Below are positions 33,067 through 64,000 of a DNA stretch of 64,000 bases, piece after piece. The notes beneath the pieces are model-generated. The model was not told where the DNA came from and searched no databases. It saw only the letters and a list, made by a program, of their open reading frames with translations. The position numbers were made by a program, and so were the translations under genes. Each line of letters opens with the position of its first letter. The stretch's first letter is position 1. The DNA is from Porticoccaceae bacterium (GTDB taxonomy: Bacteria; Pseudomonadota; Gammaproteobacteria; Pseudomonadales; Porticoccaceae): NCBI GenBank assembly GCA_018654575.1, contig JABILI010000097.1, positions 62,001 to 126,000 of the forward strand, in the 5' to 3' direction.

Positions 33067-35487
<2,421 letters not shown>

Positions 35488-36591
35488 TTAGCTTCCCGTT
35501 ATCTCGCTTTTTGTAGTAACCCCATGTTCCACATGGAACATATGATGCGCCATCCCTTCCACCAACACCTGAAAATCTCTTTTATCGACGCCCGTCATAA
35601 ACACCTGGCAATCCAATCCTCTCAAAAACCCCACAATCTGCTGGCGATGAAGGTAATCTAACTCCGCCGGCAAATCGTCCAACAAGAACAGGCACGACTC
35701 GCCGGACTTCTCCCTATAGAACGTAGCCTGAGCCAGCTTTAAAGCATAAACGAGCAGCTTAATCTGACCTCGGGACAAGCATTCTGATGCCGGCACCCCG
35801 TCTACCTTAATTTTCATGTCCGCCTTGTGGGCTCCATGGCTCGTAGTTCCAACAGCCAAATCCCGCGCCTGGTCTTCCGCCATAACCCCTGCAAGCCCCA
35901 GCTCATCAGGCCACCCCTGATAATAATCAAAACTCAACTCTCCCAGACCTTCAAGCTCTCTCGAAGCTGCCTCAATATGCTCTACCAGCCCTTCCAGATA
36001 CTCTCTGCGGTGACGCGTTAGCTCTTCACTCAACGGTATAAGCTCTGTTGTCCAGGCGCGCAACGAATCTTCGTCTATTCTACCATGACGAAGTAGTTGA
36101 TTCCGCTGTTTTAATGCTTTTTGAAATCGTCGCCACAAGTCAGTGTAAGAATGTTCCACGTGGAACACCCCCCAATCTAAAAACTGCCTTCTTTGAAGGG
36201 CGCCGCCTTCTAGCAAGTTAAAACTATGGGCATCTATTAGCTGCAAAGGAAGCTCCTCAACAAGCTGAGTTGCAGACTGCAGCGCCCTCCCATCGAGACG
36301 GGCCTCAAAAAGCCCTTTAGACGTGCGCCTTATTCCTAATCGATGGCTGCCTTTTGGTTTTTGACGCTCTAGCTGAGCTGAGACTACTAGCTCTTCAGCC
36401 TTGTGATTTACCACCAAGCGTAAATCGCGATGCTTAAAGGACCGCCCCCGGCCCAAAAGGTAAATAGCCTCAAGCACGCTAGTCTTGCCGCTACCGTTAG
36501 CGCCATAAATAACGTTGATAGCCGGATGGCACTCCAATTTAAGGCTTTTTAGGTTTCGTACTTGAAGTATGTCAATGCTTGAGAGATACAT
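35488..36591 (-). CDS. recF: DNA replication and repair protein RecF
   Basis: SMC-like ATPase that helps load RecA at single-strand gaps. The 367 residues have Walker A YGANGSGKTSVLEAI (about 29-43), the family block RRQFLDWGVFHVEH (about 136-149), the signature SRGQIKLLVYALKLAQ and Walker B LFLLDDLPAELD. Two 16-bp parS palindromes lie inside the gene; each is read as Phe-His-Val-Glu-His (in the family block, and in the C-terminal tail). The tail beyond about residue 345 extends past the conserved core. It sits between dnaN and gyrB. Confidence 0.96.
   Translation of the reverse strand: MYLSSIDILQVRNLKSLKLECHPAINVIYGANGSGKTSVLEAIYLLGRGRSFKHRDLRLVVNHKAEELVVSAQLERQKPKGSHRLGIRRTSKGLFEARLDGRALQSATQLVEELPLQLIDAHSFNLLEGGALQRRQFLDWGVFHVEHSYTDLWRRFQKALKQRNQLLRHGRIDEDSLRAWTTELIPLSEELTRHRREYLEGLVEHIEAASRELEGLGELSFDYYQGWPDELGLAGVMAEDQARDLAVGTTSHGAHKADMKIKVDGVPASECLSRGQIKLLVYALKLAQATFYREKSGESCLFLLDDLPAELDYLHRQQIVGFLRGLDCQVFMTGVDKRDFQVLVEGMAHHMFHVEHGVTTKSEITGS
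35525..35540. other. parS site (TGTTCCACATGGAACA), inside the recF 3' end
   Basis: 16-bp partition site differing by one base from the Pseudomonas-type parS palindrome TGTTCCACGTGGAACA. Its identical half-site arms and the second, perfect copy 627 bp away inside the same gene, with parA and parB 11 kb away, make it a probable ParB-binding site. It codes for FHVEH near the RecF C-terminus. Confidence 0.82.
36152..36167. other. parS site (TGTTCCACGTGGAACA), perfect 16-bp palindrome inside recF
   Basis: Exact match to the chromosomal parS consensus known from Pseudomonas. ParB binds it, spreads in a CTP-dependent way and loads SMC complexes, directing origin segregation. It lies about 3 kb from the DnaA boxes, within the usual distance of an origin. 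Confidence 0.93.
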
Positions 36592-36622: not shown

Positions 36623-37720
36623 CTAAAGGCGCATTGGCATAACGACATAAACGGCGCCACTGTCTGCAGCGCCACTAACAAGGGCGCTACTATTGGAATT
36701 AGACAGCGTAATACGCACCTCAGGACTTGAAATAACGTTAAGCACATCAATTAGATAGCTAACATTAAACCCAATCTCAAGATCTTCGCCGGAGTAATTG
36801 ACAGAAACCTCTTCTTCGGCTTCTTCTTGCTCAGGGTTATTAGCAACCATCTTAATCGAACCCCCCGACAGTAAAACACGAACCCCGCGGTACTTCTCAT
36901 TCGACAGGATGGCCGCACGCCCAAACGCTTGCTTGAGCTCAGCCCTATCACCAACGACCTCTTTATCTCCACCCTTAGGTAGCACTCGATCATAATCAGG
37001 GTAGGCGCCATCGACTAACTTAGACGTAAAGCAATAGTCCTCGCCTGTAACCCGAATATGGTTTGATCCCATAGCAACACTAACCTCGTGTTCATCCAGC
37101 AGCCTAGAGAGCTCTATAATTCCTTTACGCGGCAGGATGGCTGAGATTGTCTCTTCAACCGAGACGTCGCAAGCGCCATCACAAAGCGCCATGCGGTGGC
37201 CATCTGTAGCCACCGCTCTAAGGTTGTTGTTGGTTAGCTCCCAGAGCATGCCGTTTAGGTAATACCGGACGTCTTGTTGGGCCATAGCAAACGAGGTAGC
37301 TTCGATTAATCCCTTAAGAACCGAACCCTTCACTACAAACTCTATTGTCTTTTCTCCTTCATCCACTGAGGGAAACTCATTGGCCGGCAGAGTGGCCAGG
37401 GTGAATTTGCTTCTTCCACTTTTAAGCGTCGCCTTGCCTTCGCCACTGGAAAAATTAATTTGCGCTCCATCCGGGAGTGACCGGCAAATGTCGACCAGCT
37501 TACGAGCAGATACTGTTACCTCGCCATCCTCACCCTCAGGGCCGCTATCGCTAAAGCCGATGACTTCGACTTCAAGATCAGTGCCCGTCATTGACAACCG
37601 GCCATTTTCTAAACTTAACAGCACGTTAGATAAGATCGGTAATGTTTGTCGTCGCTCGACAACACCCACGACAAGCTGCAAAGGCTTGAGAAAAGCTTCA
37701 CGCGATAAGCTAAATTTCAT
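36623..37720 (-). CDS. dnaN: DNA polymerase III beta subunit (sliding clamp)
   Basis: Ring-shaped clamp that tethers DNA polymerases to DNA. The 365 residues (E. coli 366) start MKFSLSREAFLKPLQLVVGVVERRQTLPILSNVLL, with the three repeated clamp domains following and the conserved ending GAVYVVMPMRL. The gene is separated from dnaA by 44 bases and followed by recF at 31 bases, matching the usual order. Confidence 0.98.
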   Translation of the reverse strand: MKFSLSREAFLKPLQLVVGVVERRQTLPILSNVLLSLENGRLSMTGTDLEVEVIGFSDSGPEGEDGEVTVSARKLVDICRSLPDGAQINFSSGEGKATLKSGRSKFTLATLPANEFPSVDEGEKTIEFVVKGSVLKGLIEATSFAMAQQDVRYYLNGMLWELTNNNLRAVATDGHRMALCDGACDVSVEETISAILPRKGIIELSRLLDEHEVSVAMGSNHIRVTGEDYCFTSKLVDGAYPDYDRVLPKGGDKEVVGDRAELKQAFGRAAILSNEKYRGVRVLLSGGSIKMVANNPEQEEAEEEVSVNYSGEDLEIGFNVSYLIDVLNVISSPEVRITLSNSNSSALVSGAADSGAVYVVMPMRL

Positions 37721-39215: not shown

Positions 39216-39249
39216 CTGTTTTTATGGGTTCCCCCAACCAAAAAAACAG
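39216..39249 (-). promoter_or_regulatory. Hairpin in the dnaA leader
   Basis: CTGTTTTT (39216-39223) pairs with AAAAACAG (39242-39249), and inside it GGTT pairs with AACC around a C-rich loop. It lies 36-69 bases before the dnaA start codon, within the likely leader. A regulatory hairpin is possible; no function is known. Confidence 0.45.
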
Positions 39250-39366
39250 CGTCTCTTTTGAGTAATTTAGGTATCAATTTATCCCAACCAAAGTTAAAAG
39301 ACCGTCGATCTTTAAAAATTAAAATTTATTCTTGTTTTCACTTGAGTGTATATAACAAAACGACGA

Positions 39367-39375
39367 TTATCCACA
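39367..39375 (+). promoter_or_regulatory. DnaA box TTATCCACA
   Basis: Exact match to the strong DnaA-box consensus TTATCCACA, at the dnaA-proximal edge of the AT-rich run. Confidence 0.85.
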
Positions 39376-39501
39376 ACTAAAAAATCTCAACCGCTTTTAT
39401 AAAATTTAAAAATACCAATATAAAACAATAACTTAAATAAATGCAATGTTTTTTTTATTAACAATAAAAAATTTAAACATGGTTGTTTTTTGATCAGTAT
39501 T

Positions 39502-39521
39502 TGTGGATAACCTGTGGATAT
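39502..39521 (-). promoter_or_regulatory. Pair of DnaA boxes (TGTGGATAA, TGTGGATAT)
   Basis: Two boxes in the reverse orientation separated by two bases: the first is a perfect consensus complement, the second differs at one base. They lie on the mnmE-proximal side of the AT-rich run. The head-to-tail packing is typical of an initiator array. Confidence 0.82.
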
Positions 39522-39616
39522 ACAGTTAAGAAACAGTGTTTATCTTCTCTTTTCCCCCATTCAGCGAGAAACTAGACGCCGGGGGAAAACTATCGTGACC
39601 TAAAGTAAATTGCTGG

Positions 39617-40978
39617 TCACTTTCCTATACAAAAAGAAGAGAAAATTCGGCCCAAAAGATCATCTGGTGTGAATTGGCCGGTAATTTCTGACAATTCATT
39701 TTGCGCCTGCCGCAAGTCTTCCGCCAATAATTCTCCGGCGCCGGCACTTTTGAGTTGGTCTATACCATTTTGGACAAAAGTTAGAGCATTGGTAAGAGCG
39801 ATCAAATGGCGTCGTCGGGCAGAAAACAGTCCTTCCGCATGACCTAAGTAGCCAGCCCTTGTTTGCAAATGTGACACAAGAGCGTCAAACCCACTCTTGT
39901 CTTTTGCCGAAATAGCGACTGTGGTCTCGTCGATCATCCCAGGTCGATGGCCAGATAAATCAATTTTATTTAACAGCAAAGTAACCGGCTGAGTAGAGCC
40001 TGGATTGCGTTGAAAATACTCAGGCCACAGATCCTCCAACTTGGGGTTACTTGCGTCTGTAGCATCAACAACAAATAGCACTTGATCGGCGCTAGTTATT
40101 TCCTTCCAAGCTCGGCGCACGCCCTCCTGCTCTATCTCATTATCGCTATCGCGAAGACCGGCGGTATCGATAATATTAAGCGGTAATCCGCCTAAGGTGA
40201 TCCTCTCCCTCAACACATCTCTTGTGGTGCCCGGCACAGAAGTCACTATGGCAGCATCATTGCCGGCCAGCGCATTTAACAAGCTAGACTTTCCGGCATT
40301 GGGTTTTCCCGCTAACACAACTGTCAGCCCATCTCTCAGTATTGCGCCCTGCTGAGCCTGCGCTAACACTTCTGTTAAATCGGTAGAAAGCTGGTCGAGG
40401 TTTATCGCCAGCGTCTTATCTTGGAGAAAATCTATCTCCTCTTCAGGGAAATCAATGGCCGCTTCGACAAATATTCGCACTTGAATCATTGTCTCTACCA
40501 AAGCGTTTACTAATTGCGAAAATTCGCCCTGCATTGACCGGACAGCCGACCTAGCGGCCTCGACAGAAGACGCATCAATTAGATCAGCAATAGCCTCCGC
40601 TTGAGCCAAATCCATTTTGTCATTAAAAAAAGCTCGCTCGCTAAACTCTCCGGGCCGAGCCACCCTAGCCCCCAACTCCACGCAACGCTGCACCAGGCGA
40701 TCGAGGACCACCATACCGCCGTGCCCTTGGAGTTCGAGTATGCTTTCACCGGTAAATGAAGAAGGCCCTGGAAAATAAAGCGCTACGCCTTCGTCTATGG
40801 CCTCTCCTTCTGCACCGACAAAAACACTATAGGTTGCTCTTCTAGGGAGTAAAGGTTTACCTATCAGGCTGTCCACAAACGGCAAGATATCTGAACCAGA
40901 CAAGCGCACGACTCCCACCCCGCCCCGGCCAGCGGCGGTGGCAATAGCGACAATGGTGTCTTTGCTATTTTGAAACAT
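39617..40978 (-). CDS. mnmE: tRNA modification GTPase MnmE
   Basis: GTPase that with MnmG installs cmnm5/mnm5 groups at U34 of certain tRNAs. The 453 residues start [28 protein letters not shown], followed by the tetrahydrofolate-binding domain, a G domain with P-loop [14 protein letters not shown] (about 223-236), DTAGLR, NKID, and the C-terminal FCIGK with the essential Cys (C451). The start is only about 20 bases downstream of a terminator hairpin and has no clear Shine-Dalgarno sequence. In this genome it follows yidC but is not adjacent to mnmG. Confidence 0.97.
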
Positions 40979-40997
40979 ATTGAAAGTATGCCAGATT

Positions 40998-41020
40998 AAA
41001 AAGGCTCCCGCAGGAGCCTC
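40998..41020 (-). terminator. Terminator hairpin between yidC and mnmE
   Basis: On the minus strand the 6-bp GC-rich stem GGCTCC/GGAGCC with a 4-base loop is followed by five Ts. It lies just after the yidC stop. Because mnmE begins about 20 bases beyond, it may act as an attenuator that lowers mnmE expression, not as a true operon end. Confidence 0.75.
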
Positions 41021-41031
41021 TTAAGTTGTCA

Positions 41032-42708
41032 CTATTTCTTCTTATTGATTAGTTGGCCATTAACGTACCACTGCTGGACCATTGATAATAAATTATTAAC
41101 CGTCCAGTAAAGAACCAAACCAGACGGGAAAGTCATAAACAAAAACGTGAAGCCTATGGGCATAAACTGCATCACTTTGGCTTGCATTGGATCGGCGGGC
41201 ATTGGCTGCATTTTTTGCATCAAAAACATGCTCGCTCCCATCACAAGGGGTAAAATAAAGTAGGGGTCTTTGGCGGATAAATCTTGAATCCAAAACACCC
41301 ACGGCGCATGGCGTATTTCTACCGACTCTAGCAACACCCAATAAAATGATAAGAACACCGGCATTTGCAGCAACATTGGAAAACAACCTCCAGCCGGATT
41401 AACTTTTTCTTTCTTATACAGGCTCATCGTCTCTTGAGACATCTTTTGCCGGTCATCGCCATAAAGTTCTTTAAGGCGTGCCATTTCCGGTTGCAAGTTA
41501 CGCATTTTCGCCATCGATTTAAGGCTTGCCGCCGAGAGAGGGAACAGCAGCAATTTTATCAGGAGCGTTAACAATATAATCGACCAACCCCAATTACCGA
41601 TAACACCATGGATCGCTTTCATCGCAAAAAAGATAGGCTTCCCGATCATCCACAAAAACCCGTAATCAACAGTCAAATCAAGATACTCGGCAAGCTTTGA
41701 CAGCTCTTCTTGGTCTTTGGGGCCAACGTAAAAAATTGCTTCATAACTACCAGACTGCCCCGCATCGACAATAATAGGCGCTCCAATGAAGCTCATTAAA
41801 TACACGTCTTCTTCTTTAACTTTTCGGAGCTCATACCTATTTTGGTCACCTGTTGGTGGTATCCAGGCGCCAATAAAATAATGCTGAATCATCGTTATCC
41901 AGCCACCAGTAATCGACGTTTTTACACTGCCTTCTGCGATCTCACTAAAATCATACTTGGCATAGTTTGTCTCAGGCTCACGAAGAGCCGCGCCCAAGTA
42001 TGGCTGCGCGCCAAGTCCGCTAGAGCCTCCTGCTGGTGGTTTAGAATCTCGCTTTATTTGGCCATAAAAATTGGCCCTAAACTCGGAGCTAGTTAGGTTG
42101 TTAATTAAATATTGAACGCTGACATCATACCCATCTTGGCTAAACTGAAACCGCTTAATAATTTCTACTCCATCCATATTCAACGTTAAATCAACGTTCA
42201 TTGTTTCTTGGTTGTCTTGTGTTTCATAGCGATCGCTTGACGACGCAAATTGGGGTCTGTTGCTGTTCTTATCTGTGGCATTTGGGCCTATTAGCCCGCT
42301 TTTCGCAATATAAGTTGCCATATTGTTTTGTTGTAAGATGGCTAAAGGTTGTCCGCCGAGGTTCGGCATTTTATCTAAGTGTTGTAATAGCTTAGCGCCT
42401 ACAATATCGCCTCCCAACGTATCAATGGCGACCTCAATAACATTGTTTTTGACTATAATTAGATTTCTTTTCGGCGCCTGCCTTTCCTGTGGAATCACAA
42501 TTGGTTGTTGCAATAGCGGCAACTCTGAATCTAGATTGTCATTTTTAAAGGACGCTGGGGGCTCATTGTTAGATAAATAAGCCGGCTCCTGAACTTGGGC
42601 GGCCTGTGAAAGCTTTATTCGATCGTCTTGAAATTGATTCCACTGAATAACTAGCAACCACGCCACAATAGCCATACCCGCGATTAAAACTGTTTTTTGC
42701 CAATCCAT
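41032..42708 (-). CDS. yidC: Membrane protein insertase YidC
   Basis: Inserts proteins into the inner membrane, alone or with SecYEG. The 558 residues have an N-terminal TM, a large periplasmic beta domain (about 55-330), and five C-terminal TMs with the conserved GNWGWSIILLTLLIKLLLFPLSAAS, the cytoplasmic PEMARLKELYGDDRQKMSQE loop and FPSGLVLYWTVNNLLSMVQQW. The length is typical for Gram-negatives (about 550). It follows yidD by five bases. Confidence 0.97.
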   Translation of the reverse strand: MDWQKTVLIAGMAIVAWLLVIQWNQFQDDRIKLSQAAQVQEPAYLSNNEPPASFKNDNLDSELPLLQQPIVIPQERQAPKRNLIIVKNNVIEVAIDTLGGDIVGAKLLQHLDKMPNLGGQPLAILQQNNMATYIAKSGLIGPNATDKNSNRPQFASSSDRYETQDNQETMNVDLTLNMDGVEIIKRFQFSQDGYDVSVQYLINNLTSSEFRANFYGQIKRDSKPPAGGSSGLGAQPYLGAALREPETNYAKYDFSEIAEGSVKTSITGGWITMIQHYFIGAWIPPTGDQNRYELRKVKEEDVYLMSFIGAPIIVDAGQSGSYEAIFYVGPKDQEELSKLAEYLDLTVDYGFLWMIGKPIFFAMKAIHGVIGNWGWSIILLTLLIKLLLFPLSAASLKSMAKMRNLQPEMARLKELYGDDRQKMSQETMSLYKKEKVNPAGGCFPMLLQMPVFLSFYWVLLESVEIRHAPWVFWIQDLSAKDPYFILPLVMGASMFLMQKMQPMPADPMQAKVMQFMPIGFTFLFMTFPSGLVLYWTVNNLLSMVQQWYVNGQLINKKK

Positions 42709-42713
42709 ACTCT

Positions 42714-42971
42714 TTATAACTCTTTTTGGTTTTTATGCGAAGTCACTTGAGCTGCGTTATTGTCTTCAACGGGATCAAAGCCACCAGGGTGAAAAGGATG
42801 ACACTTTGCTATCCTTAATATTGTTAAATAACCGCCCTTAATAAATCCAAACCGATCAAAGGCCTCCTCTGCATAACAAGAGCAGGTCGGGTGAAATCGA
42901 CAGTTACTGCCAAGCAGCGGGCTAATGGCTCGCTGGTAAAAACGAATGCTTATAAGGACCAGTTTACGCAT
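42714..42971 (-). CDS. yidD: Membrane protein insertion efficiency factor YidD
   Basis: Small protein that assists YidC-dependent insertion. From ATG 42969-42971, preceded by a strong GGGGG purine stretch, it has 85 residues with the family block [27 protein letters not shown] and [13 protein letters not shown]. The ATG lies inside the end of rnpA (8-base overlap), as commonly seen in this cluster; the frame extends seven codons further, but without homology. An amphipathic N-terminal helix is visible. Confidence 0.94.
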
Positions 42972-43347
42972 TTTTCCCCCTTTGCTTGTCACAGCGCTGA
43001 CGAAGTCTGCACCAAGACTGCTGCAACAACAAGGTCATCTCATCAGAGCTAAGCTTGTGAGCATCTTTTCTGGCAAAAAAAACAACATCTATCGGCTGAG
43101 TGAACTGCTCGAGCCTAAATGTTTCACGTACTATTCTTTTAACGCTATTACGCCCTACCGCAGTTGAAATATTTTTTTTGCCCACAACTAGACCCAGCCT
43201 TGATTTATCGCGGTAGTTAAACTTTGCAAGCATTAAAAGCTTTGGGTGTGCAATCTTGAATGTACTAGTATCGAAGACCTCTTGAAATTCAGAGGCCTTA
43301 AGTAATCGCTTTTCTTTATTAAATCTTAAGCTGGGCACCGAGCCCAA
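42964..43347 (-). CDS. rnpA: Ribonuclease P protein component
   Basis: Protein subunit of RNase P, which matures tRNA 5' ends with the M1 RNA. The 127 basic residues contain the RNR-type motif [18 protein letters not shown] and [17 protein letters not shown]. The frame begins at a TTG three bases after the rpmH stop; a GTG three codons later could also serve. It overlaps yidD by eight bases. The block rpmH-rnpA-yidD-yidC-mnmE is complete. Confidence 0.95.
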
Positions 43348-43350
43348 ACC

Positions 43351-43485
43351 TTACGCCGAAAGACGCTTTCGGCCTTTTGCTCGCCGACGGTTTAACACTG
43401 CACGGCCACCAGATGTCGCCATGCGAGCTCTGAAGCCATGGGTGCGCTTGCGCTTTAGGTTGCTTGGTTGGAATGTTCTTTTCAT
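43351..43485 (-). CDS. rpmH: 50S ribosomal protein L34
   Basis: Ribosomal protein L34 of the large subunit. The 44-residue frame reads [20 protein letters not shown] at its start, followed by a basic tail ending KRLSA, as in all L34 proteins. It is the first gene of the rpmH-rnpA-yidD-yidC-mnmE block. The ATG at 43483-43485 follows a purine-rich sequence (AAAAGTGGAAATAACG). A strong promoter lies upstream on the minus strand. Confidence 0.97.
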
Positions 43486-43530
43486 GACGTTATTTCCACT
43501 TTTCTTTGGGCTTCTGCTTCAGGGTCGGCG

Positions 43531-43559
43531 ATTCTAAAGAAATTAACCCCACAGATCAA
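43531..43559 (-). promoter_or_regulatory. Sigma70 promoter of rpmH
   Basis: On the minus strand, TTGATC and TAGAAT are spaced by exactly 17 bases, 46 bases before the rpmH start. The -35 contains a GATC, so if a Dam methylase is present it could be sensitive to methylation. Confidence 0.7.
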
Positions 43560-44019
43560 TGATTTATTCAGTATATATACAAAATAACCCCCAGCAGGCT
43601 AGTGATTCAGCCAATAAATAAAAATCCACAGCTTGCGCATAGTTAATACATCAATTACTAACATTTGGTTGAAACCGCCAATAACCTGTTAAGAACTACC
43701 GGTGAGACAAAAAAGTTACACACAAAAGTACTGCCTTTATTCCTATAACCTCTGGAATAGGTGTTTTTAATACAAAACCAAACATAGGTGTGCGCAGCAT
43801 AAAAACATAAAACCCCCGTTGTTATACAGCTAAAATCCCAGGCTAAGTAATTGAAAAACAAAACAAATTCTATTTAACCCACAATTAAGCGCCTCCCTAA
43901 TAACAACAACAATAATCTAATAACTTAAATATACTAATATTATTTAGATCATTAAATAATAGTGTTTAGACTTAAAAAAACCCGAGAAAACGAAATCAAT
44001 CAAAACCCTTTGAATAACG

Positions 44020-44025
44020 TATAAT
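44020..44025 (+). promoter_or_regulatory. -10 element candidate for mnmG
   Basis: TATAAT is a perfect -10 with a poor -35 at 17 bases (TCAATC region), placed 33-38 bases before the mnmG ATG. Confidence 0.45.
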
Positions 44026-44057
44026 GTTCGGCCGAGAAATAAGAAGCAGTGGATGCC

Positions 44058-46598: not shown

Positions 46599-46623
46599 AT
46601 TATATTTAGTGGGAAACAGAACG

Positions 46624-47424
46624 TTGGCGAAGATTATTTCGATAGCAAATCAAAAAGGAGGTGTTGGTAAAACAACAACAAGCGTCAACTTGGCCGCCTC
46701 TCTTCATGCTTACAAGCAGCGAGTTTTACTCGTCGATATTGACCCTCAAGGTAACGCTACTATGGGGTCTGGCGTTGACAAACAAAGCTGTCAGCTCAGC
46801 GTCTATAACGTTTTAACTGAGAAGAACTCGATAGAAGAGGTTGTTGTGACCACCGAAGCCGGCGGATATGATTTATTGCCAGCCAACAGAGATTTGGTGG
46901 CGGCGGAAGTAGAACTAATGCAGGAAATTGGTCGAGAAACGCGACTACGTCATGCGTTAAATCGGATTGCGAGTAATTACGACTTTATTATCATTGATTG
47001 CCCGCCTTCATTAAATATGATGACGGTGAATGCGTTGGTTGCTAGCGACGGCGTTATAATACCCATGCAATGCGAATACTATGCTCTGGAGGGACTGTCT
47101 GATTTAAACAACACCATTCGGCAAATTGCTAAGCTTATCAATCCAAAACTGCGGATTCAGGGTATTTTAAGAACCATGTATGATCCGCGTAGCAGTCTCA
47201 CTAATGCAGTGTCAGCGCAACTTAGAAGGTATTTTGGCGACCGGGTCTATCGAATTAGTATTCCAAGAAACGTAAGGCTAGCGGAAGCACCGAGTCACGG
47301 TTTACCTGCGTTGGCGTATGACCGCAACTCAAAAGGTTCTTTAGCTTACCTTGCTTTGGCTGGAGAAATACTTCGGTTAGAGAAACAACAACCGACAAAT
47401 ACAAACACCTTGAAGGCGCAATAA
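46624..47424 (+). CDS. parA: Chromosome partitioning ATPase ParA (Soj)
   Basis: Walker-type ATPase that moves ParB-bound origins. The deviant Walker A KGGVGKTTTSVNLAA directly follows MAKIISIANQ, when started at TTG 46624, and the Walker B-like IIIDCPPSLNMMTVNAL and SIPRNVRLAEAPSHGLPA follow. The frame also starts with GTG 46609, which lacks an RBS; TTG 46624 has GGGA upstream and matches other ParA starts. 266 residues. parB follows one base later. Confidence 0.95.
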   Translation: MAKIISIANQKGGVGKTTTSVNLAASLHAYKQRVLLVDIDPQGNATMGSGVDKQSCQLSVYNVLTEKNSIEEVVVTTEAGGYDLLPANRDLVAAEVELMQEIGRETRLRHALNRIASNYDFIIIDCPPSLNMMTVNALVASDGVIIPMQCEYYALEGLSDLNNTIRQIAKLINPKLRIQGILRTMYDPRSSLTNAVSAQLRRYFGDRVYRISIPRNVRLAEAPSHGLPALAYDRNSKGSLAYLALAGEILRLEKQQPTNTNTLKAQ

Positions 47425-47425
47425 G

Positions 47426-48313
47426 ATGGTGGCAAAACGACAAAGTTTAGGAAAAGGATTAGATGCGCTTCTTGGTTTTAACGAAGACCAAGCCGACGCG
47501 AGCGAAGAAAACGCAATACAGGCGTTTGGCGATGGGACGTTAGCTGAACTACCCGTTGAATTTTTGCAGCGAGGCAAGTATCAACCGCGTAGAGATTTAA
47601 ATCCTCACGCCTTACAAGAGTTAGCAAGCTCCATCTCTCAGCAAGGGGTTATGCAACCCATTGTTGTACGCATGTTGGGCGAAAACAAATATGAAATAAT
47701 AGCCGGTGAGCGCCGCTGGAGGGCAACCCAGCAAGCCGGAATTGATACAATCCCCGCTATTGTTCGTGATATTAGTGATGAAACTGCGATCGCGATGGCG
47801 TTAATTGAAAACACACAGCGCGAAGATCTCAATGCCATAGAAGAAAGTCAGGCCTTATTAAGGCTCCAGGATGAGTTTAAGCTAACACAGCAGCAGGTTG
47901 CTGAGGCGGTGGGTAAATCAAGAACTGCCGTGACCAACTTAATGCGCCTAGCAACCCTCGATAGTGCTGTTCAGCGGCAACTGGAATTAGGGGAGATTGA
48001 GTTGGGCCATGCTAAGTGCTTGCTCGCCCTAGAGGGAGAGCGACAAGTGAAGGCGGGGCGAGAGGTGGCGGCTAACTCAATGACGGTTCGGCAAACTGAG
48101 GCTCTAGTAAAGAAGATGCAGCTTGGCACTACCGAGCCGGGTGTGGCGAAGCCTTCTACGGTTAATACTGACATCATCAGGGTGCAAGAGGACCTCTCTG
48201 AAAAAATCGGCGCTGCGGTACTAATTAAGCATAGCGCAAAAGGCTCAGGAACCCTAACGGTGAAATACAACAGTGTTGATGAGTTGGAGGGGATTCTTGC
48301 CCACATAAAATAG
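47426..48313 (+). CDS. parB: Chromosome partitioning protein ParB (Spo0J)
   Basis: DNA-binding CTPase that loads at parS and spreads. The 295 residues have the N-terminal LGKGLDALLG, the CTP-binding GERRWRATQQAG (about 93-104) and NTQREDLNAIEESQAL, the helix-turn-helix LTQQQVAEAVGKSRTAVTNLMRLATL (about 151-176) and a C-terminal dimer domain. Two candidate parS sites lie in recF. It is co-transcribed with parA, and is followed by the atp promoter region. Confidence 0.96.
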   Translation: MVAKRQSLGKGLDALLGFNEDQADASEENAIQAFGDGTLAELPVEFLQRGKYQPRRDLNPHALQELASSISQQGVMQPIVVRMLGENKYEIIAGERRWRATQQAGIDTIPAIVRDISDETAIAMALIENTQREDLNAIEESQALLRLQDEFKLTQQQVAEAVGKSRTAVTNLMRLATLDSAVQRQLELGEIELGHAKCLLALEGERQVKAGREVAANSMTVRQTEALVKKMQLGTTEPGVAKPSTVNTDIIRVQEDLSEKIGAAVLIKHSAKGSGTLTVKYNSVDELEGILAHIK

Positions 48314-60732: not shown

Positions 60733-61911
60733 TTAACTATCGGACAAAAATTGGCGCTGGAGCTGTCGGATTTTAGACAGCACGTCATCACGGTCAAGAT
60801 AGGTGCCACGAAGTGCGCGATCTCCAGAGTTTGGATCATACGCTGTGCGACCATGCAAAATACGACGATTATCAAAGATAATGAGGTCACCCGCCTTAAA
60901 AGGAAAGCTCATTTGATACTCTGGCGAGTTTGCTTTTTCCATGTAGCACCTTAACGCGGCATACGCCTCTTTGATGTCCTCGAAGCTTCCTTGTAAGGGA
61001 GCTCGAGAGAACGGAAGCATGCGTATTTCCAGTAATTTGCCTGCATCATCTAAACCAATGGTGGGTGCTTCCCAGCGATAATCTTTGGGCCCTGCTCGAT
61101 TTGCATAACACCATTTTGTAGACGTTAGCGTCTTATAGTGGCCAGGAAATTCCTGCTCAATATCTTTAGCCACCTTGAAACCGTCAGTCATTAAGCTTTC
61201 ACCGCCTTGAGCGTCGGCAACTCGGGAGTGAAGTATTTGGATGCCTGGAGGTGATTCTCGCGTTGGTATGTCAGTATGAGCGGCTAGATATTCGCTGGTA
61301 TAGGCATTACTGTCACCATCGGCCTTTGAGATTACGTCGAAAATTCGATCAAAATGAGTCTCCCTAATCGCACCTATACGCAGAGCAAAGTCCTCAACGA
61401 GCTCTAGATCTGTTGGCAAGTCTCTCAGGCGCGCAAGCCCATGACGGCCAACAGAAACAAGGACATCATATAACAGCGCGTCACTGATCAGGCCATCGAG
61501 GGCATAAAAAGTCGGCGGCTCAGGGAGTTGCGCGGTGCCCCAAAATTCAGAGCTAACGAGGGGCGCTGGCGGCTGTACGCTATTAGCATAGAGCCAGGCG
61601 GGATTAAACCGGCTCACATGAGAGCGCTCTGGCCAGGTTATACAAAGAGCACCTTCAGCATCAATCTCAAGCGATAAGGCCTGAATATCTGCAGGAATAT
61701 CCCGTAAATCTAACAAATTTTCTCGAGTTACCTGATGCAAGCAGAGTGCGCAGCAACAGTTGTCTCTCAGCCATAAAGGATGTAGCGTAGAGCGCTTGTC
61801 GTTGTCCCATAACACCAGAATTGCATTATCATTGATCTCGACTGAAGCAATGTTTTGGCTTGGCGGCCAGTACCAGTTGTCAGGTGTCGGAATAAGGTTA
61901 TTTGCGCTCAT
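60733..61911 (-). CDS. Gamma-butyrobetaine dioxygenase-like Fe(II)/2-oxoglutarate oxygenase
   Basis: Probable enzyme hydroxylating gamma-butyrobetaine to L-carnitine using 2-oxoglutarate and oxygen. From ATG 61909-61911, with AAAGGAGGTGA upstream, it has 392 residues (the frame also opens at a GTG two codons earlier that overlaps the RBS). The N-terminal zinc-binding domain has C52-x-C54-x-x-C57 and H98, as in human BBOX1; the catalytic domain has the iron triad H212-x-D214 (AAHTDIP) and H353 (RILHGR). It lies downstream of the carnitine dehydrogenase fusion. A related trimethyllysine dioxygenase cannot be fully excluded. Confidence 0.87.
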   Translation of the reverse strand: MSANNLIPTPDNWYWPPSQNIASVEINDNAILVLWDNDKRSTLHPLWLRDNCCCALCLHQVTRENLLDLRDIPADIQALSLEIDAEGALCITWPERSHVSRFNPAWLYANSVQPPAPLVSSEFWGTAQLPEPPTFYALDGLISDALLYDVLVSVGRHGLARLRDLPTDLELVEDFALRIGAIRETHFDRIFDVISKADGDSNAYTSEYLAAHTDIPTRESPPGIQILHSRVADAQGGESLMTDGFKVAKDIEQEFPGHYKTLTSTKWCYANRAGPKDYRWEAPTIGLDDAGKLLEIRMLPFSRAPLQGSFEDIKEAYAALRCYMEKANSPEYQMSFPFKAGDLIIFDNRRILHGRTAYDPNSGDRALRGTYLDRDDVLSKIRQLQRQFLSDS

Positions 61912-61937
61912 ATTCACCTCCTTTTATAGTAGATTGC

Positions 61938-63371
61938 CTATTGTAATCGAGCCAAGGCAGCAGCAATAGGCGGCCGGGGAGGGCAAGATTTGCGCGTATT
62001 CAAATCAACATGTAGCAAAAACTGTGAGCATGTTGCACAGAGTTCACCCTCCGCATTTTTCATCTCATGGGCCAGCTTTAGTTTTTTGCCTTCGGCCAAC
62101 ATAATTGATGTGAAAACGGCAAGTGCGTCTCCAGCCAAACACTCTGCCAAATAACTAATTTGTAGGTCAACCGTAAAATAACTATACCCTTGCGACACAT
62201 AATCTTGATCAGCCCCCATGCCGGCCAATAACTCATCACTGGCCTTAGAAAAGACTTCGCCATAATGGCTGTCATTCATATGCCCGTTATAATCCACCCA
62301 GCTAGACGGAACAACACGGCGAGTGGTGCAAACAGAATCGCCTAGCGCGGGCGGTGCAGTGAAGGTGTCCGCTTCTACGCTTAGGGTTTGGTCAACCTGG
62401 TTAAGCAGGTTGCCTGCCCCCCAATCTTTGACCTTTAACGCCCGCATCATGCCGACTAAATTGTCGTCGCGAATACGCTCCAATGCTCTGATCGAATATT
62501 GTCCAGACTGCTGATCTGATTGACTGGCGATCTTATCGACTAGCTCATCGGTGAGTTCTGGCACGTCCATAAGCTTGGTCCAAGGCCATTTTAAGGCCGG
62601 GCCAAATTGCTGTATGAAGTGCGCCATGCCTGCCTCACCACCCGCTATTCGGTAGGTTTCAAACATTCCCATCTGCGCCCAGCGCAGGCCGAAGCCATAA
62701 CGGATAGCGTCATCAATTTCCCTCGTTGTAGCAACGCCATCATTGATCAACCAAAGGCCTTCTCGCCACACTGCCTCCAGCAAACGGTCAGCTAGATGGG
62801 CATCAATTTCTTTGCGGACTCTTAATGGGTACATCCCAAGATCAGATAAAATGTTGGCAGCATGCTCAGTTGTTTGAGCGTCGCCGACTAGCTCCACTAA
62901 GGGAAGCAAGTAAACCGGATTAAAGGGATGAGCAACGATAATTTGTTTGGGATTGGAGGCATGTCTTTGTAATTCTGAGGGTTTAAAGCCAGACGTCGAG
63001 GAGGCAATAATTGCATTTTCTGGGCAGTGAGACTGTATTTCAGTGTAAGCCAAGTGCTTAATATCTAAACGCTCGGGAATACTTTCGCTTATCCACCCAG
63101 CATTTCTAACGGCTTCGGCAATGCTGGGGCAAAATACAAGCTGCCCTTCCTTTGGCAAAACATGTTCGTACAAGCCAGGCAGTGAACGGCGGGCATTTTT
63201 AAGCACCTCATTTATTTTTCTTTCCGCGTCTGGGGCCGTGTCAAAAACACTGACGTCATAGCCCATTAATAAAAAGCGAGCGGCCCAGCCACCACCGATA
63301 ACGCCGCCGCCAATTACAGCGAAATGTATTTTTTTATTACGGCTACTGTGAGAGGTGGCATTCGCCGCCAT
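61938..63371 (-). CDS. L-carnitine dehydrogenase fused to a betainyl-CoA thioesterase-like domain
   Basis: Two-domain enzyme of 477 residues. About 15-320 is a 3-hydroxyacyl-CoA dehydrogenase-type NAD domain (GGGVIGGGW at 21-29; catalytic H148 in VAHPFNP), matching L-carnitine 3-dehydrogenase. About 345-465 is a 4HBT-type hotdog thioesterase (VDYNGHMNDSHY, with D360 and H364). In Rhizobiales this fusion acts on carnitine and on betainyl-CoA; in Pseudomonas these are separate proteins (CdhA, CdhB). It starts as TAATG with the BKACE gene and is followed after 26 bases by the dioxygenase. Confidence 0.9.
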   Translation of the reverse strand: MAANATSHSSRNKKIHFAVIGGGVIGGGWAARFLLMGYDVSVFDTAPDAERKINEVLKNARRSLPGLYEHVLPKEGQLVFCPSIAEAVRNAGWISESIPERLDIKHLAYTEIQSHCPENAIIASSTSGFKPSELQRHASNPKQIIVAHPFNPVYLLPLVELVGDAQTTEHAANILSDLGMYPLRVRKEIDAHLADRLLEAVWREGLWLINDGVATTREIDDAIRYGFGLRWAQMGMFETYRIAGGEAGMAHFIQQFGPALKWPWTKLMDVPELTDELVDKIASQSDQQSGQYSIRALERIRDDNLVGMMRALKVKDWGAGNLLNQVDQTLSVEADTFTAPPALGDSVCTTRRVVPSSWVDYNGHMNDSHYGEVFSKASDELLAGMGADQDYVSQGYSYFTVDLQISYLAECLAGDALAVFTSIMLAEGKKLKLAHEMKNAEGELCATCSQFLLHVDLNTRKSCPPRPPIAAALARLQ

Positions 63372-64000
63372 TACCGCGGAGCTCGTTTCGTTAGGCCTAA
63401 CTGATCTCGCACTTGCTGGGGAGTCATAATGCTAGACCCCATAGCGTCGATAATGGTGACCGCCTTCTGGACTAAAGCCTCATTAGTCGCAAGGACCCCT
63501 TTTTCTAGCCAAATGTTATCTTCTAGGCCGACCCGCACATTACCGCCCGCCAAAATGGAAGCCGCGACATAAGGCATTTGACTGCGCCCAATAGAGAACG
63601 AAGACCAGTTCCAATCACGGGGGACATTGTTCACCATTGCCATATAGGTGTTCAAATCATTAGGAGCTCCCCAAGGAATTCCCATACACAGTTGGACTAA
63701 AGCCGGGCTATCGAGAACGCCCTCTTCCACTAGTTGTTTTGCAAACCACAGATGCCCCGTATCAAAGGCTTCAATCTCTGGCTTAATGCCCAATTCAGTC
63801 ATCATGCCACCCATCTCCCGCAACATACCTGGGGTGTTGGTCATGACATAATCAGCCTCTGCAAAATTCATCGTGCCACAATCTAGAGTACAGATTTCAG
63901 GCAAGCAATCAGCCATAGGCTCTATTCTGCTTTCAGCGCTGCCCATGTCCGTGCCTTCCTGTAAAGGCAGAGGCGCCGATGAAGGACCAAACACGACATC
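63371..64000 (-). CDS. BKACE family dehydrocarnitine cleavage enzyme (5' partial)
   Basis: Beta-keto acid cleavage enzyme (DUF849). In carnitine catabolism it turns 3-dehydrocarnitine and acetyl-CoA into betainyl-CoA and acetoacetate (CdhC in Pseudomonas). About 210 C-terminal residues are in the window; the frame is open to the edge, so the N-terminus is missing. Visible family motifs are LDCGTMNF, PEIEAFDTGHLWFA, FSIGRSQMPYVAASILAGGNVRVGLEDNIWL, which hold catalytic residues of the TIM barrel. The stop overlaps the next start by one base (TAATG). It is the third gene that fits carnitine breakdown. Confidence 0.92.
   Translation of the reverse strand, partial: DVVFGPSSAPLPLQEGTDMGSAESRIEPMADCLPEICTLDCGTMNFAEADYVMTNTPGMLREMGGMMTELGIKPEIEAFDTGHLWFAKQLVEEGVLDSPALVQLCMGIPWGAPNDLNTYMAMVNNVPRDWNWSSFSIGRSQMPYVAASILAGGNVRVGLEDNIWLEKGVLATNEALVQKAVTIIDAMGSSIMTPQQVRDQLGLTKRAPR

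Follow-up and report, generated by a model that had tools for sequence, protein, structure and literature searches.

A parS pair in one reading frame of recF and its apparent imprint on RecF residues in the Gammaproteobacteria

RESULTS

Gene content of the origin region

The window, a 64,000-nucleotide stretch of a Porticoccaceae draft genome, carries yidC (assigned by eye), mnmE, dnaA, dnaN, recF, and gyrB on its minus strand and mnmG, rsmG, parA, and parB on its plus strand. The relevant features are the following:

33067..35481, minus strand: gyrB, the downstream neighbor of recF; above the cutoffs of NF011501 and TIGR01059
35488..36591, minus strand: recF, host gene of both parS sites; TIGR00611
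35525..35540, no strand: tail parS TGTTCCACATGGAACA; one mismatch, in the central CG; recF codons 351 to 356, MFHVEHG
36152..36167, no strand: core parS, perfect palindrome TGTTCCACGTGGAACA; no mismatches; recF codons 142 to 147, DWGVFHVEH
36623..37720, minus strand: dnaN, the upstream neighbor of recF in the dnaA-dnaN-recF-gyrB block; above the cutoff of TIGR00663
37765..39237, minus strand: dnaA; above the cutoff of TIGR00362; the true start is possibly inside the listed open frame
39367..39521, no strand: DnaA-box cluster, candidate origin; two exact boxes and one near box
46609..47424, plus strand: parA, partition ATPase, located after rsmG and directly before parB; best NCBIfam match ParA_partition, below the model cutoff
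47426..48313, plus strand: parB, presumed to read the recF sites; above the cutoff of TIGR00180, with the Noc model below its cutoff

The recF product scored 344 bits against TIGR00611 (NCBIfam cutoff, 172) over model positions 1 to 338 of 339, and its identity was further indicated by a profile including the window RecF that was matched by the RecF structures 5z67 and 2o5v. At one mismatch, 17 DnaA boxes were found in the window versus 13.9 expected, so what favors 39367 to 39521 as the origin is only the grouping of its boxes and the exactness of two of them; the GC-skew minimum falls near 44 kb of the window. An mnmE-yidC-yidD-rnpA block adjoins dnaA on the dnaA strand (window positions 39237 to 44049), and mnmG starts at 44 kb. 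The gene order from 39237 to 44049 is one that we take to differ from the Pseudomonas order. Toward the end of the window (60733 to 63994), three minus-strand genes resemble, by eye, a carnitine breakdown set comprising a hydroxylase, a dehydrogenase-thioesterase fusion, and a cleavage enzyme.

The parS pair and its presumed reader

An earlier note, made from the letters of this DNA, had claimed a perfect parS palindrome and a one-base variant inside recF, both read as FHVEH in the same frame, with the first in a conserved RecF block. A mismatch search against the 16-bp palindrome TGTTNCACGTGNAACA returned both, the core site with no mismatch and the tail site with one. Since their starts are 627 bp, or 209 codons, apart in recF, they share one reading frame, both being translated FHVEH, and the core site does fall in the conserved block. 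The note had also placed the tail site beyond conserved RecF, which proved to be wrong, as F352, H353, and G357 were invariant in a 13-sequence alignment.

Inside the window, the mismatch count alone is weak evidence, because four matches to parS were found at up to three mismatches versus 2.43 expected from shuffling. Across the whole draft genome (2,419,146 bp in 103 contigs, a draft state that could conceal further parS sites), the core and tail sites were the only ones within one mismatch of the palindrome. The chance expectation per genome, calculated from base composition, was 0.01 for exact sites and 0.4 to 0.8 for one-mismatch sites, according to how strands are counted, and the tail site alone is therefore unremarkable. 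What is notable about the tail site is that it shares its gene and frame with the core site and is conserved in relatives. Approximately 3 kb separates the pair from dnaA and from the cluster of DnaA boxes that is the candidate origin.

The same genome encodes a cognate parS-type ParB 10 kb from the recF sites. By alignment, this ParB has the equivalents of R173 and G201, which are the parS-type specificity residues of ParB (excerpts of PMC7383237), and it resembles the solved ParB structures 7bnk and 6t1f. Its R and G stand in place of the Q173 and R201 equivalents of a Noc protein, and it scored 210.9 bits against the Noc model versus a cutoff of 315, so that no membership in the Noc/NBS system was found by these two measures.

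Conservation in the family, order, and class

Family loci L038 and L045 have recF sequences identical to those of records named Porticoccaceae (L150 and L151), making this the probable family of the window. Within the family, RecF was sought in 98 genomes and found in 92, and 90 loci were used, G054 and G075 being left out because their recF is split. At one mismatch or fewer, the core site was present in 86 of the 90 genes, the tail site in 83, and both in 79. The tail peptide was variable (FHVEH, FHMEH, FHVEQ, FHVKQ, and FYVEH), while the underlying DNA remained parS-like. The tail site was gone and the core site retained in one group (L042 to L046). One genus (L086, L089, L090, and L092) had lost the core site, with the peptide now DWGLFHTAS and DWGLFHTHP in its two aligned members. 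All four members of this genus carried another recF parS. It lies approximately 250 to 280 bases into the read frame, in another codon phase where it is translated GVSRET, and it was exact in three of the genes and had a single mismatch in the fourth. From sequence, this GVSRET-phase parS looks like a replacement of the lost core site, though maybe one that arose in a single event.

A wider set of 226 recF genes was made up of the 90 family genes, 26 from the order (30 loci obtained, 4 of them already in the set), 30 from class genomes lacking the core pattern (30 of the 49 recF-bearing genomes among 71 that lacked it), and 80 named loci. Removal of 6 repeated places and 6 identical sequences left 214 distinct genes for alignment. 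Sampling was partly by peptide, which may inflate the conservation of the core amino acids but not codon choice. At one mismatch or fewer, 175 of the 214 genes had the core site, 186 the tail site, and 166 both, while 15 had lost both, these counts being of related sequences and not of independent events. In all 166 two-site genes the core-tail spacing was 612 to 657 bp and a multiple of 3. The only extra recF sites at one mismatch or fewer in the 214 genes were those in the GVSRET phase.

Of the 244 order genomes searched, 123 matched the DWGxFHxE codon pattern, 239 the parS pattern, and none a register-shifted core pattern that was one base short. The number of sites per genome, which was counted by hand with the larger strand count taken, was two in 162 genomes, one in 35, three or more in 42, and none in 5. 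Among the matches listed, 42 order genomes were complete; 27 of these had a pair 612 to 657 bp apart, 6 had one site, and the 9 arranged otherwise among those matches were G245, G197, and seven genomes of family f37. In f37 genomes (for example, G264, G244, and G133) parS was present but not at the recF spacing, and in G264 it lay approximately 10 to 15 kb from recF, suggesting a shift of the centromere to another place in the origin region. Several genomes of groups f35 and f36 had many more parS sites, up to 11, than the two-site majority.

At the class level, DWGxFHx[E/K/Q] was matched in 136 of 275 genomes, at 137 places. The earlier note had suggested looking for relatives that keep the peptide with the palindrome destroyed by synonymous changes; 129 of the 137 places read FHV[E/K], of which 121 had no mismatch over the 14 bases of parS that the pattern covers and none had more than one. 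At the 131 places with one mismatch or fewer, the codon before F was GTG, TTG, CTG, or ATG in 127 and NCG in 4, H was CAC in 129, and V was GTG in 127; D was GAT in 91 and GAC in 40, and G appeared in all four of its codons. This agreement of peptide and site, together with the codon counts, supports the suggestion in the note that the DNA site and the protein constrain each other.

Among the 80 named loci, most of those from Pseudomonas had both sites, as did Azotobacter, Stutzerimonas, Halopseudomonas, Chromohalobacter, Haliea, Rheinheimera, and Pseudidiomarina. A tail site, in some cases imperfect, was all that remained in both Vibrio loci, two of the three Shewanella loci, and one Aeromonadaceae locus, the core site having been lost. 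Neither site was found at up to two mismatches in Marinomonas, Marinobacterium, Salinicola, and several Enterobacterales (Klebsiella, Citrobacter, and Gilliamella), and 40 recF-like genes taken from the phylum's other classes, a few of them poor RecF matches, likewise had no parS at up to two mismatches. Judged from this distribution, the recF parS pair is to all appearances an old gammaproteobacterial arrangement, ancestral or very old.

The core site of L167 (Pseudomonas chlororaphis) and of L170 (P. botevensis) had decayed by 3 and 2 bases, respectively, with the peptide unchanged and the tail exact, and what appeared to be a relic of the tail site, with one to two mismatches, was present at the recF end in Kluyvera (L208), Xenorhabdus (L212 and L220), and Yersinia (L227). 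The par genes are described as absent from Enterobacteriaceae in the accessible part of PMC3909081. Of 30 class genomes tested for ParB, 29 had it, and both recF sites were lost in three of these 29 (G469, G376, and G380, with the match in G376 being weak at an E value of 1e-23). The recF arrangement is thus not obligatory, since lineages lacking one or both sites still carry ParB.

Codon choice at the sites

When 92 conserved degenerate codon columns of recF were ranked by codon uniformity, the top seven were all parS codons (355E, 145V, 146E, 142V, 354V, 144H, and 353H), followed in eighth place by 312D at 0.77. F143 and F352 ranked lower, their third base being the variable Y of parS. The codons CAC-GTG-GAA were used in 156 of 167 core FHVE genes versus 11.4 predicted by the codon usage of the individual genes and in 122 of 141 genes at the tail versus 10.6 expected on the same basis, the background frequencies in these genes being 0.40 for CAC, 0.34 for GTG, and 0.48 for GAA.

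Changes were also counted on a FastTree phylogeny of RecF from which the parS columns had been removed. The third base changed 3 times at H144, 2 times at V145, and once at E146 of the core; the corresponding counts were 18 at F143, 26 at F352, and 11 at H353, and 19 to 55 at the 18 other tabulated conserved columns outside the sites. Residue 142 underwent 17 amino acid changes versus 2 changes in bases 2 and 3 of its codon. Residue 356 underwent 39 amino acid changes, with 5 changes in bases 1 and 2 and 58 in base 3; most of its switches are between H and Q, since the site covers only bases 1 and 2 of this codon. The presence of the core site had to change at least 12 times and that of the tail site 9 times on this tree, which was unrooted, so that gains and losses were merged. 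DNA conservation at the sites thus exceeded the need of the protein.

What RecF retains without the sites

Residue 145 was V in all 175 recF genes with the core site. Of the 37 genes without the core site, only 2 had V at this position, the others having N, T, H, S, A, L, Y, F, Q, R, or D; all 37 retained F143, and 28 retained H144. Among the 19 ungapped recF genes without the tail site, F352 was present in 15, V, L, M, or I at position 354 in all 19, and G357 in 18, with H353 in only 6 and E355 in only 3. Many of the 40 recF-like genes from other classes end, by eye, in a comparable x-V-x-x-G C-terminal strand. In an AlphaFold2 model of RecF (mean pLDDT of 89), the core site corresponded to the end of a predicted helix (residues 131 to 145) and the tail site to a predicted C-terminal beta hairpin (residues 349 to 355 and 358 to 361). 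As these RecF elements are kept without parS, they are independent of the site, which fixed residues within them.

DISCUSSION

Considering the sequence evidence as a whole, we regard it as very likely that the two palindromes form the parS centromere of this chromosome, set within recF approximately 3 kb from the candidate origin, and that selection on the DNA froze their codons. By analogy with P. aeruginosa, we infer that ParB binds the window sites and that they function in segregation. ParB, encoded 10 kb away, would bind the recF pair, close as a CTP-dependent clamp, and slide outward, and movement of ParB by ParA would separate the newly copied origins. The tail parS may be a weak binder, because its center is changed and center changes lowered affinity in P. 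aeruginosa (excerpts of PMC4368675). The pair occupies codons of two RecF elements, one being the LDWxxF block and the other the x-V-x-x-G strand at the C terminus, and selection on the DNA would have frozen these codons, dictating Val145 and largely Glu146 at the core and His353, Glu355, and His/Gln356 at the tail. Across the class, several "conserved" RecF residues appear to be fixed by the parS signal in the DNA and not by the RecF protein. With moderate confidence, we further propose that the gammaproteobacterial ancestor had a two-site recF centromere, that V145, E146, H353, E355, and H/Q356 are DNA imprints and not needs of RecF, and that selection keeps two sites, a lost one being replaceable in other recF codons.

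It is very unlikely that the FHVE peptides are instead conserved for RecF function with the palindromes as a by-product. F143 and H144 do persist without the core site (37/37 and 28/37), as do F352 and G357 without the tail site, but synonymous codons are beyond the control of a peptide, and CAC-GTG-GAA was used in 156 of 167 core genes versus 11.4 expected. Furthermore, V145 was lost in 35 of the 37 genes without the core site, and residues 142 and 356 vary while the in-site bases hold. Codon uniformity, codon usage, and the tree counts all contradict pure protein conservation, which was dropped. The earlier note had suggested that the RecF C-terminal tail exists to carry the second parS, in line with a tail length that is variable after the site and with H353, E355, and H/Q356 tracking the site. 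Genes that lost the site nevertheless keep the F-x-V-x-x-G strand (F352 in 15/19, a hydrophobic residue at 354 in 19/19, and G357 in 18/19), a similar strand was seen by eye in many RecF proteins of other classes without parS, and the element is a predicted hairpin. The suggestion is therefore unsupported, and an acquisition of the tail for this purpose, contradicted by the strand in site-less recF and in other classes, was rejected as most improbable.

Regulation of the dnaA-dnaN-recF-gyrB block by ParB, and not segregation, might alternatively be the main role of the sites, as excess ParB lowers expression near parS1 to parS4 in P. aeruginosa (excerpts of PMC5521831). At the native ParB level, however, mutation of parB or parS did not derepress the genes beside the intragenic sites parS1 and parS2 (same excerpts), and a single site of parS1 to parS4 is enough for partition (excerpts of PMC4368675), making this role unlikely. 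Finally, 0.4 to 0.8 one-mismatch sites are expected in a genome of this size and many of the sequences are related, which could be taken to mean that chance matches were kept by common descent only; yet other codons of the same genes underwent 19 to 55 third-base changes versus 1 to 3 at the core parS codons, and the pattern spans the class, so the probability of this explanation is negligible.

The preferred reading, a parS centromere selected as DNA within recF, means that a centromere would be locked in a replication-repair gene and would set part of its protein, a caution that a conserved residue is not always a protein requirement. Because the segregation site is tied to the dnaA-dnaN-recF-gyrB block, it could move along with the origin region as gene order is rearranged. 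The locus also offers a natural test of overlapping selection, since one set of codons can be compared among genes that have the site, lack it, or have replaced it.

Livny et al. (2007) is reportedly a survey of parS sites. The recF sites of P. aeruginosa are known; for class-wide conservation of parS in recF or an effect on RecF residues, no report was found in the open-access literature, a scope that excludes Livny et al. Of the sources on P. aeruginosa, PMC3909081 and PMC5521831 locate parS1 and parS2 in recF, PMC10419367 gives ChIP-seq data for the parS1-parS4 region, and ParB binding and function of the recF sites are demonstrated between PMC5521831, PMC10419367, and PMC4368675, all as represented in the accessible portions of these papers. 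Within those portions, PMC3909081, PMC4368675, and PMC5521831 leave aside both the conservation of the sites in relatives and any effect on RecF residues. Silent mutations were made in the intragenic parS of P. aeruginosa, one of parS1 to parS4 being sufficient (excerpts of PMC4368675), and we infer that the positions of these mutations fit the same reading frame.

The window genome is like P. aeruginosa in having two parS sites in recF, which in that species are approximately 4 kb from oriC (excerpts of PMC3909081, PMC4368675, and PMC5521831), and the published parS1 and parS2 sequences, TGTTCCACGTGGAACC and TGTTCCACGTGGAACA, are the core and tail of most Pseudomonas loci. Unlike the window genome, in which only the recF pair was detected, P. 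aeruginosa has two further strong sites, parS3 and parS4, outside recF, again according to the accessible text. In Caulobacter, a screen of inserted parS favored the recF-gyrB area as a hot spot, but there the recF-gyrB parS was inserted experimentally and the native sites are elsewhere (excerpts of PMC5815017). The arrangement described here is like chromosomal ParABS systems generally in having parA and parB close to rsmG-mnmG and a parS palindrome of 16 bp close to the origin, and it is unlike them in that all of the sites detected in the window genome are in one gene, in one frame, and codon-frozen.
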